This document shows, piece after piece, positions 15,554 to 26,491 of a stretch of 64,000 nucleotides of DNA. The stretch comes from Selenomonas timonae (GTDB lineage: Bacteria; Bacillota; Negativicutes; Selenomonadales; Selenomonadaceae). Where the stretch lies: contig NZ_CP060204.1 of the NCBI RefSeq assembly GCF_014250475.1, positions 62,001-126,000 on the forward strand, written 5' to 3'. The notes below the pieces were generated by a model, which was not told the DNA's origin, did no database searches, and worked only from the letters and a program-made list of their open reading frames with translations. Numbering within the stretch: the stretch's first letter is position 1; each line of letters opens with the position of its first letter. A program made the position numbers and the translations under genes.

Positions 15554-17215
15554 TTACACAGCAGCGGCTTCGGGCACATTCACCTCAATGCCAAACATTG
15601 CCATATCATCCTCAACATTCGTGATGCCGCCGATGCCGAAAGTCTCGACGAGTACCTTTGCGACATTCGGAGAGAGGAACGCGGGAAGCGTGGGGCCGAG
15701 GTGGATGTTCTTCACACCGAGGTGGAGCAGCGCGAGGAGAACGATGACCGCCTTCTGCTCATACCACGCAATGTTGTACGCAATCGGGAGCTTGTTCACA
15801 TCATCCAGACCGAATACTTCCTTGAGCTTCAGCGCGATCAGTGCAAGCGAATAGGAGTCGTTGCACTGCCCCGCATCGAGGACGCGCGGGATGCCGCCGA
15901 TGTCGCCGAGATCCTTCTTGATGTACTTGTACTTCGCGCAGCCCGCCGTGAGGATAACCGTGTCGTGCGGCAGAGCCTCCGCGAACTCACCGTAGTACTC
16001 ACGCGACTTCATGCGGCCGTCGCAGCCTGCCATGACGACGAACTTCTTGATCGCACCGCTCTTCACCGCCTCGACGACCTTATCCGCGACAGCAAAGACC
16101 TGCTCATGCGCGAAGCCGCCGACGATCTCGCCCGTCTCCAGTTCCGTCGGAGGCGCGCACTTCTTCGCACACTCGATTACAGGCGTAAAGTCCTTCTCAC
16201 CGTTCACGAGAGGAATGTGCGTGCAGCCCGGCACGCCAACCGCAGCCGTTGTGAAGAGACGATCCTTGTAGCTGTCCTTCGGCGGAACAACGCAGTTCGT
16301 CGTCATGAGAATCGCGCCGTTGAACTTCTCGAACTCCTCTTTCTGCAGCCACCATGCGTTGCCGTAGTTGCCGACGAGGTTGTCGTACTTCTTGAATGCG
16401 GGGTAGTAATGTGCGGGAATCATCTCGCCGTGCGTATAGACATCGACCCCCGTGCCCTTCGTCTGCTCCAAGAGACGCTCGAGATCCTTGAGATCATGTC
16501 CTGAGATGAGAATCCCGGGGCGGCTGCCGACACCGAGCTTCACCTTCGAGATCTCGGGATGTCCATACGTGCTCGTGTTCGCGCCATCGAGCAGAGCCAT
16601 ACCGTCCACGCCCCACTTGCCCGTCTCAAGCACAAGTGCCGTCAGCGCGTCGCCATCCATCGTATCGTCGAGAAGCTGCGCAAGCGCACGCTGCATGAAC
16701 GCATCGATCTCCTCGTTCTCGTGGCCGAGTGCATTCGCATGCTCAACGTAGGCGGACAGCCCCTTCAGGCCGTACATCGTCAGTTCGCGCAGACTGCGGA
16801 CATCCTCGTTCTCCGTCGCGAGTACGCCGACCGTCTTTGCCTTCGCCTCGAAGTCCGCGCGCGGAGCCGTCCAATGTGCCGCCTCGGGCAGCTTCGATGC
16901 ATCGGCAAGCTGTGCGAGCAGATCCGACTTCAGCGCGAGCGTCTCCTCGATCACATCGATGATTGCCTCACGGTCGAAATTCGCATTCGTGATCGTAATG
17001 AAGAGGTTCATCGTCACGCGATGGTTGACCTCAATCGCAACCTTCTTGCCCTCTGCGCGCAGTGCCGTCGTCACCGCGCCGAGCCCCTTCGTCACATAGA
17101 CGAGCAGATCCTGCATCTCCGCGACATCCGGCTTCTTTCCGCAGACGCCCTGCACCGTGCAGCCCTTGCCGCCCGCCGTCTCCTGACACTGATAACAAAA
17201 CATTTTAGCATCCAT
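15554..17215 (-). CDS. hcp: Hybrid cluster protein (hydroxylamine/NO reductase)
   Basis: 553 residues, the usual length. The N-terminal cysteine cluster ('[23 protein letters not shown]', residues 5-27) binds the cubane cluster. The C-terminal Cys-containing motifs of the hybrid Fe-S-O cluster follow ('VPGCTHIP', 'MAGCDGR', 'TAGCAKYKY'). Hcp removes nitric oxide and hydroxylamine under anaerobic nitrosative stress. The start chosen is the ATG at 17215 behind AAAGGAG; an upstream in-frame Met lacks a ribosome site. A class-II CRP/FNR-type site precedes the promoter. No hcr reductase gene lies nearby. Confidence 0.97.
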
Positions 17216-17262: not shown

Positions 17263-17304
17263 ATTATAGCAAAGGAGTCTCTCCATAGACGTAACATATG
17301 TTAC
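17263..17304 (-). promoter_or_regulatory. hcp promoter with CRP/FNR-family activator site
   Basis: A TATAAT -10 box lies at 17263-17268 with no good -35 box. The perfect palindrome GTAACATATGTTAC (17291-17304) is centred 41.5 bases upstream of the predicted start (about 17256), the classical class-II activator position. HcpR or another NO/redox-responsive CRP/FNR-type factor is the likely partner. Confidence 0.7.
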
Positions 17305-17333
17305 CGTGTGCTAATCAATAAAAATTCTCAAAT

Positions 17334-23903: not shown

Positions 23904-25220
<1,317 letters not shown>

Positions 25221-25317: not shown

Positions 25318-25478
25318 TGCAGGAGCCGCATGCAGAGTCCCATATCTGAGATATTTCTAAGAAATTCTTCAAGCACTGCACAGTACATCGATCACACAAA
25401 AATTTTCGATATTTTTCATTCTTAATGTATCTTTTTTTGTATTGTGTGACTTGGGTTACAAAATTTTCAAAAATAATA

Positions 25479-25487
25479 TGATATAAT
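25479..25487 (+). promoter_or_regulatory. Extended -10 promoter of the candidate small RNA
   Basis: TGATATAAT gives an extended -10 element with a perfect TATAAT (25482-25487). The -35 region is weak (TTACAA at 25456, 20 bases away). No coding region follows before the terminator at 25691. Upstream, 25318-25478 is AT-rich and holds nothing I recognise. Confidence 0.6.
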
Positions 25488-25493
25488 ACAGAT

Positions 25494-25691
25494 GTCAACG
25501 GGAACTACGAAACGTCCTCCCCGACATTTTCCCCGTTGATCATCCCTCTATAGGAACGTTTCCCTGCGTTCCTCATTGTAAGGCAAATAACCCTTACATC
25601 CCATTTCTCAAGCCGCAGGTTTTTCCCGACCTGCGCGCATCCCTTTCCAGGAAAAAGAGCCGCTTGGCACCCCGCCAACGGCTCTTTTTCT
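25494..25691 (+). ncRNA. Candidate small RNA with serial hairpins and C-rich loops
   Basis: The segment between the extended -10 promoter and a strong terminator (about 198 bases) has no credible reading frame. It folds as a chain of local hairpins: TCAACGGG/CCCGTTGA (25495-25539), GGAACG/CGTTCC (25553-25572), TGTAAGG/CCTTACA (25577-25598), CGCAGGT/ACCTGCG (25614-25635), and the terminator. Unpaired segments repeat TCCC/TTTCCC/CCTCCCC, complementary to Shine-Dalgarno sequences. No end-to-end pairing as in 6S RNA and no tRNA-like ends as in tmRNA are seen. Transcription is inferred from the promoter and terminator only; I cannot name a family. Confidence 0.55.
25652..25691. terminator. Terminator shared by the small RNA and the ZIP transporter gene
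   Basis: Arms 25652-25662 and 25679-25689, with an inner TTGGC/GCCAA helix, end in TTTTT on both strands. Confidence 0.88.
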
Positions 25692-25711: not shown

Positions 25712-26491
25712 TTATCCGAGTGCGACATCGAGCATCATCATGAGCGAGAAGCCCGCTGCGAACGAGATGACGCCCACATCCGAATGCTCCCCCTCACTCA
25801 TCTCCGGAATCAACTCCTCGACGACGACGTAAAGCATCGCACCCGCTGCAAATGCGAGTGCATATGGCAGAATCGGCACGACGAGAGCCGTCGCGAGAAT
25901 AGTGAGAGCACCGCCGATCGGCTCTACTGCGCCAGATAGGACGCCGCCGCCGAACGCACGCCACTTCCCCATCCCCGCCGCACGCAGCGGCATGGATATG
26001 ATCGCGCCCTCGGGAAAGTTCTGAATTGCAATGCCGAGCGAGAGCGCGAGCGCTGCGCCGAGCGTAATCCCCTCGCTGCCGCTCATCCACCCCGCATAGA
26101 TCGCGCCGACCGCCATCCCCTCTGGGATATTGTGGAGCGTCACTGCAAGACAGAGCATCGTCGTCCGCGAGAGGCGGCTGTGCGGTCCCTCTGCTTTCTT
26201 TGCGTTCATGTGCAGATGCGGGATGATGTGGTCGAGCGCAAGCAGGAAGAGGGTTCCTGCCCAGAAGCCCACAACGGCAGGTACAAACGCAAGCTGCCCC
26301 ATCTCCGCAGAGCCTTCCATCGCGGGGATCAGCAGACTCCAGATCGACGCCGCAACCATCACGCCCGCTGCAAAGCCCGTCAGCCCGCGCTGCACGTTGC
26401 GGTTCAGCGCCCCCTTGAGAAAGAATACGCAGCCCGCACCGAGCGCCGTGCCGATGAACGGTATCATCAATCCTTGAAAAATATCCAACAT
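25712..26491 (-). CDS. ZIP-family divalent metal transporter (ZupT/GufA-like)
   Basis: 259 residues with eight predicted helices. The metal-binding helix 'LAVTLHNIPEGMAVGAIYAG' and the following 'GIAIQNFPEGAIISMPL' are diagnostic of the GufA/ZupT branch. A His-rich cytoplasmic loop ('HIIPHLHMNAKK') lies near residue 88. It should import zinc or a related divalent metal across the cytoplasmic membrane. It is monocistronic, with no metalloregulatory box recognised. Confidence 0.92.
   Translation of the reverse strand: MLDIFQGLMIPFIGTALGAGCVFFLKGALNRNVQRGLTGFAAGVMVAASIWSLLIPAMEGSAEMGQLAFVPAVVGFWAGTLFLLALDHIIPHLHMNAKKAEGPHSRLSRTTMLCLAVTLHNIPEGMAVGAIYAGWMSGSEGITLGAALALSLGIAIQNFPEGAIISMPLRAAGMGKWRAFGGGVLSGAVEPIGGALTILATALVVPILPYALAFAAGAMLYVVVEELIPEMSEGEHSDVGVISFAAGFSLMMMLDVALG

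Follow-up and report, generated by a model that had tools for sequence, protein, structure and literature searches.

A stretch of 64,000 nucleotides (nt) from Selenomonas timonae (contig NZ_CP060204.1, positions 62,001 to 126,000; hereafter the window) was analysed, and positions 25494-25691 on its forward strand almost certainly represent a real, stand-alone gene for a non-coding RNA. Very probably this RNA is under CRP/FNR-type control, as judged from a predicted operator, the palindrome TGTGACTTGGGTTACA, which was missed by the first-pass annotation of this DNA and is the best clue to the role of the RNA. Taken as a whole, the model towards which we lean is that of a genus-specific small RNA (sRNA), which would be activated by a CRP/FNR-family protein and would act by blocking Shine-Dalgarno sequences. 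The coordinates of the elements are collected in Table 1.

The RNA is encoded on the + strand. Its neighbours on either side lie on the - strand, eno at 23904-25208 and a ZIP transporter gene (Pfam Zip) at 25712-26491. It combines the properties of a bacterial sRNA gene, namely a promoter of its own, a terminator, a conserved fold and no conserved reading frame, the last judged by eye. The first-pass annotation had described an unnamed sRNA with serial hairpins, placing an extended -10 element before 25494 and the end of a strong terminator at about 25691, and these coordinates proved right. The fold of 200 nt reaches -77.5 kcal/mol; shuffles average -38.9 (standard deviation (sd) 4.09), which gives a z of -9.44, and none of 200 shuffles equalled it. 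It contains the four hairpins that had been described before the terminator, with a small inner hairpin inside the first. The word UCCC occurs seven times, compared with a mean of 2.9 in dinucleotide shuffles (4 of 1000 reach seven). Six of these words are unpaired in the 200-nt fold, in loops and linkers, as had been claimed for the C-rich words; the one at 25530 is part of stem 1, and the last (25640) is half paired in a slightly shorter fold. The segment had been said to lack a coding frame, and no conserved frame was found by eye in the alignment of congeners, several of which have no ATG and which differ by single-base insertions and deletions; a short frame in the window's genome has its ATG at 25492-25494. 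An Rfam scan and a covariance alignment had been suggested as checks, and both were run. The former matched no known family: Rfam 15 gave no match at the gathering threshold in the whole window, and none over the RNA at an expectation value (E) up to 1. The symmetry of A-run and T-run suggests that the terminator is probably shared with the ZIP gene, whose transcription it would also end from the opposite strand.

Table 1. Promoter and RNA elements in the window
Feature	Position	Strand	Remarks
Palindrome TGTGACTTGGGTTACA	25445-25460		Predicted CRP/FNR-family operator, centre at about -41.5
Extended -10 element	25479-25487	+	TG 25479-25480, TATAAT 25482-25487
Small RNA	25494-25691	+	5' end predicted; fold z -9.44; present in 14/14 genus genomes
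Hairpin 1	25494-25540	+	Inner loop CUCCCC 25517-25522; both-sided pair changes at two outer-stem positions
Linker 1, CAUCCCUCUAU	25541-25551	+	Unpaired in 200-nt fold; CAUCCCUCUA invariant in 14/14
Hairpin 2, loop UUCCCU	25552-25573	+	From the fold; 100% of cells paired
Hairpin 3, UCCC-free loop	25577-25598	+	From the fold; 99% of cells paired
Linker 2, UCCCAUUUCUCAA	25599-25611	+	Unpaired; identical in 13/14; one base change in G004 removes a UCCC
Hairpin 4, loop UUUCCC	25612-25638	+	From the fold; one pair changed on both sides
Linker 3, AUCCCUUUCCA	25639-25649	+	Unpaired in 200-nt fold, partly paired in 9/14 single-genome folds; invariant in 14/14
Intrinsic terminator hairpin and T-run	25650-25691	+	Lower stem kept, upper part variable among congeners

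The distribution of the RNA was followed in a genus sample of 14 mouth-associated Selenomonas and Centipeda genomes, in which G000 is the genome of the window. In a DNA search of 100 genomes, the RNA was found in all 14 genus members and in none of 47 genomes from other genera of the family, and two of 39 class-level genomes (G070 and G074) matched the promoter end of the query only. A covariance model applied to 189 family genomes recovered the same 14 members, with E from 1.9e-49 to 2.6e-42. No credible copy was obtained from the other 175 family genomes in this search, in which strict filters and the scoring of 16 candidates per genome may have cost weak relatives; two weak matches (E 0.0034 and 0.009) were rejected, both being antisense within coding frames. 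An exact 18-mer scan of a named genome collection gave ten genus records, comprising Selenomonas artemidis, infelix, noxia, flueggei, felix and massiliensis, Centipeda periodontii, and records F0473, FOBRC6 and oral taxon 892 without a species name. Five exact matches in unrelated organisms were set aside as being at about chance level (7 to 8 by our own estimate); four of them reach 16.9 bits or less when scored by the covariance model, and the fifth (Streptomyces) was not among the matches listed. Plasmids and phages gave no 18-mer match.

It was found that eno adjoins the RNA in 14/14 genomes and the ZIP gene in 12/14 (not in G002 and G013). In other genera, eno was located in 17 of 29 genomes, and the covariance model gave nothing at these 17 loci at E up to 1. 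The only one of these loci with a similar box (up to two mismatches, within 700 bases upstream) belongs to G034, where ZIP and eno are close neighbours and the RNA is absent; just upstream of eno in this genome (L090), TGTGACTCAGGTTACT stands about 22 nt before a TATGAT directed into eno. The genus loci themselves show two peculiarities. In G011, nearly 600 consecutive N stand between the promoter and the RNA (L017, about 907-1498; L009, from about 1710), and in G006, the end of an interspersed repeat, GCACTGATAAATTCAG, directly follows the terminator of the RNA. This repeat end or its complement occurs seven times in 464 kb of G000; the sites recorded are 15437 in the window, 4955 and 5574 in L168, 1266 in L171, 5964 in L175, 9363 in L180, 16727 in L182, 1763 in L005 and 1759 in L017.

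Purifying selection on the RNA is well supported: the core of the 13 congeners is 0.89-0.98 identical to the window's copy, compared with 0.53-0.87 at fourfold sites of eno. The same serial hairpins were obtained when each of the 14 sequences was folded alone (z from -6.0 to -13.3), with an extra outer helix in G009 and, in 9/14 folds, an extra small hairpin that joins part of the last linker to the foot of the terminator. Most genomes keep seven UCCC words, and five to six are present in G004, G007, G003 and G002. In the covariance alignment, the stems were found to be conserved across the genus with few compensatory changes. Standard pairs make up 98.1% of 742 stem cells, compared with 39.9-52.7% when the partner is slid, and both-sided changes affect eight cells, where shuffles average 2.9 and 0 of 500 reach eight.

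The operator has the form GTGAC-N4-GTYACA in all 14 genomes, with GTGAC and GT.ACA invariant, and its right half reads GTTAC in ten of them. The TG, the TA (25482-25483) and the AT (25486-25487) of the -10 element are invariant as well, and the end of the box is separated from the -10 by 21 nt in 13 genomes and by 22 in G002. Given a start at 25494, this spacing puts the operator centre at about -41.5. A TGTGA-N6-TCACA-like box at about -41.5, present in 14/14 genomes relative to a predicted start site, is the arrangement of a class II CRP/FNR promoter. A simple -35/-10 scan paired TATGAT, three bases off, with GTTACA (9 of 12), and did not list the TATAAT -10 with any -35 hexamer.

The same geometry was observed at other promoters. 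In 13/13 genomes with an orthologue of L051, a regulator described below, narK is preceded by an exact TGTGA-N6-TCACA, which counting by eye put 21 nt upstream of the -10. When 464 kb of G000 were scanned for TGTGA-N6-TCACA (up to 2 of 10 mismatches) combined with a TATAAT-like -10, five matches were found at spacing 21: this RNA, narK and the genes for a TOBE-domain protein, a cupin and a methyltransferase. Crude gene calls placed all five between genes. The other 39 spacings together gave 14 matches. Three control patterns yielded totals of 12, 9 and 13 matches, of which 1, 1 and 0 were at spacing 21. The box of the TOBE-domain gene is present in 13/13 genomes with the gene, which G003 lacks; the spacing is 22 in G002 and 21 in the other 12. 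That of the cupin gene is present in 12/14 (not G009 or G010). In G005, the TOBE-domain gene was matched as two adjacent pieces (L210/L211), suggesting a frame break. Because the same box precedes the narK, TOBE-domain and cupin genes, the RNA is probably activated by a CRP/FNR-type protein.

Five HTH_Crp_2 matches over the cut-off were found in G000. Four of them, L049-L052, match the cNMP-binding family as well, in two cases below the cut-off of that family. In L051, both domains exceed the cut-off. Its recognition helix reads ARESLNR and its C-terminus carries CENCGKDIC; the gene is divergent from a NarK-family transporter gene, has nitrate reductase gamma and delta genes nearby and has orthologues in 13/14 genus genomes. 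L051 shows the CRP/FNR fold, the R180/E181-type helix, the C-terminal cysteine cluster and the narK neighbour of a B. subtilis-type Fnr; all its NCBIfam matches are below the cut-off, and no model for B. subtilis Fnr was among the matches listed. B. subtilis Fnr presumably has a similar cysteine cluster and a gene beside narK. In the accessible part of Rodionov et al. (2005, PMC1274295), R180 and E181 of CRP/FNR proteins are tied to positions G3 and A6 of the site. The R and E are carried by L051 and by L049 (AREVVSR), where they are conserved in 14/14 genomes. L050 (RPSLSR) fits the HcpR2 code, for which the same part of that source gives the consensus GTAACnnnnGTTAC. In the window, the HcpR2 consensus of that text is found as GGTAACATATGTTACG at about 17290-17305 (- strand), upstream of hcp (15554-17215) and 21 nt before a TATAAT (counted by eye), and it fits the HcpR2-like regulator L050.

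Trans-acting Shine-Dalgarno blocking is the probable function, to go by the layout and pairing of the C-rich segments. Possible targets were sought in 464 kb with 402 crude gene calls, whose starts were chosen partly by Shine-Dalgarno sequences. GGAGG occurs in 154/401 start regions and GGGA in 113/401, where a coding control has 4 and 25, the choice of starts having favoured such words. Against the start regions, AAACGUCCUCCCCGACAU gave -11.43 compared with -8.93 for shuffles (sd 0.79), about 3 sd better, and AUCAUCCCUCUAUA gave -8.53 compared with -6.67 (sd 0.90), about 2 sd better; the segments clearly above their own shuffles sit at about 25510-25527 and 25540-25553. For the last linker, the gain was slight (-11.50 against -10.23, sd 1.18). 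The first-pass annotation had likened the C-rich segments to anti-Shine-Dalgarno sequences, and this idea is partly supported: these two segments clearly and the last linker slightly exceed their shuffles, the other three do not, and no target was found. Covering of Shine-Dalgarno sequences is plausible by anatomy and partly supported by pairing energy. Hfq is encoded in the genome.

In the proposed mechanism, a CRP/FNR-family activator would bind GTGAC-N4-GTYACA at about -41.5 and switch on the extended -10 promoter of the RNA, along with at least the narK, TOBE-domain and cupin genes. In the transcript of about 198 nt, rigid hairpins would alternate with exposed C-rich loops and linkers carrying UCCC and CUCCCC. 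By pairing with the G-rich Shine-Dalgarno regions of target mRNAs, these would block translation, so that the RNA would give the regulon a repressing arm.

Several results speak against this model. The operator pattern with up to two mismatches occurs genome-wide 110 and 104 times, compared with 119 and 122 for the control, showing no excess; the operator sequence alone is not rare, and the argument hence rests on its position and conservation. Two of the five spacing-21 matches, narK and this RNA, were already known when the stretches were chosen. The covariation is present but thin, with both-sided change in only 3 of 53 pairs, a number that 25 of 500 shuffles reach. For three of the six C-rich segments, pairing differs from that of the shuffles by no more than half an sd or is weaker still. 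Strong duplexes numbered 97, while ten shuffled sets gave 44-125, with one set above 97, and in the 464 kb searched, targets were not separable from background. Transcription of 25494-25691 is something we infer from its letters. Finally, G013 has no L051 orthologue (best match 24% identity) and still keeps the box at the RNA, the TOBE-domain gene and the cupin gene.

The last observation bears on the identity of the regulator. Fnr (L051) as the sole regulator was dropped because G013 keeps the boxes without it, and for the same reason an L049-type protein, which is present in all 14 genomes, or an overlap of regulators would be no worse a candidate than the narK-linked L051. It is improbable that the sRNA is real and its palindrome serves a regulator of another kind, such as Rex or HcpR, or is unused. 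An HcpR2-like protein (L050) is indeed encoded, and the right half GTTAC found in ten genomes is a half-site of the HcpR2 consensus in the accessible part of PMC1274295; however, GTGAC is invariant in all 14, the window's hcp has a full GTAAC-N4-GTTAC instead, and the narK boxes are exact TGTGA-N6-TCACA.

A rather unlikely alternative, though the weightiest of those considered, keeps the CRP/FNR-controlled sRNA and gives its C-rich sites another task, whether binding a protein, sponging a G-rich RNA or using the long invariant linkers to pair with one or two particular targets. Linkers such as UCCCAUUUCUCAA are near-invariant beyond the C-run, yet this linker pairs no better than its shuffles, and no target stood out in the duplex search, all of which fits such a role; on the other hand, two segments exceed their shuffles at start regions, and the layout matches that of known Shine-Dalgarno blockers as far as the sources consulted describe them. 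Far less probable is a cis-acting element, be it an antisense or untranslated stretch belonging to eno or the ZIP gene, or a spacer with a shared terminator. The RNA does sit between two opposite-strand genes, with a terminator probably common to the ZIP gene, but it lies clear of both coding frames, comes with a conserved promoter and terminator of its own, persists in G002 and G013, where ZIP is not adjacent, and is missing from G034, of another genus, where ZIP and eno are neighbours. The Shine-Dalgarno-blocking sRNA thus remains the reading that we prefer.

Among known systems, the closest in working principle are most likely RsaE/RoxS, LhrC and sX13, and by every test made the RNA is a member of none of them. 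RsaE/RoxS (RF01820; Staphylococcus and Bacillus) shares the C-rich regions, through which it binds ribosome binding sites, and is under respiratory and redox control by ResD and Rex, according to the available text of PMC8216469, whereas the RNA described here has more hairpins and a CRP/FNR-type box. Membership was rejected, as the RF01820 model matched 0/14 genus genomes at E <= 0.001, with a positive B. subtilis control, and gave nothing within the RNA itself up to an E of 1. In LhrC of Listeria, UCCC-bearing loops and linkers mediate target binding and Hfq is dispensable (PMC4132741, in part); LhrC is 111-114 nt long, has five copies and is under LisRK, in contrast to a single copy of about 198 nt here that has no Rfam match. 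The sX13 RNA of Xanthomonas likewise has rigid stem-loops with apical C-rich loops that act on G-rich motifs near start codons (PMC3771888, in the portion available); however, it is proteobacterial and has three stems and 4C/5C loops, and the RNA here matches no Rfam family. With FnrS of E. coli, under FNR/ArcA (PMC10993149), and PaiI of Pseudomonas, under nitrate/NarXL control (PMC5703892), both as described in the accessible sections of these papers, the likeness is in the kind of control; the hosts differ and the RNA here is without an Rfam match.

In the literature on small RNAs of Selenomonas and Negativicutes, no characterised sRNA was among the matches listed, and a human-microbiome survey (PMC8040213) may hold this one unnamed. 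It is tentatively proposed, as a possibility that we rate below the model itself, that the RNA represents a new sRNA family limited to oral Selenomonas and Centipeda, which would serve an Fnr-type nitrate-respiration regulon of anaerobes as its post-transcriptional arm. It would be a functional counterpart of FnrS and RoxS that is unrelated to them by descent, and it may have arisen in the short gap separating ZIP from eno, where G034 has a similar box only. If this is true, the RNA would be a strong first sRNA candidate for Selenomonas and the Negativicutes, it would be tied to the nitrate respiration genes of mouth bacteria, and it would add another C-rich sRNA to those under a respiratory regulator.
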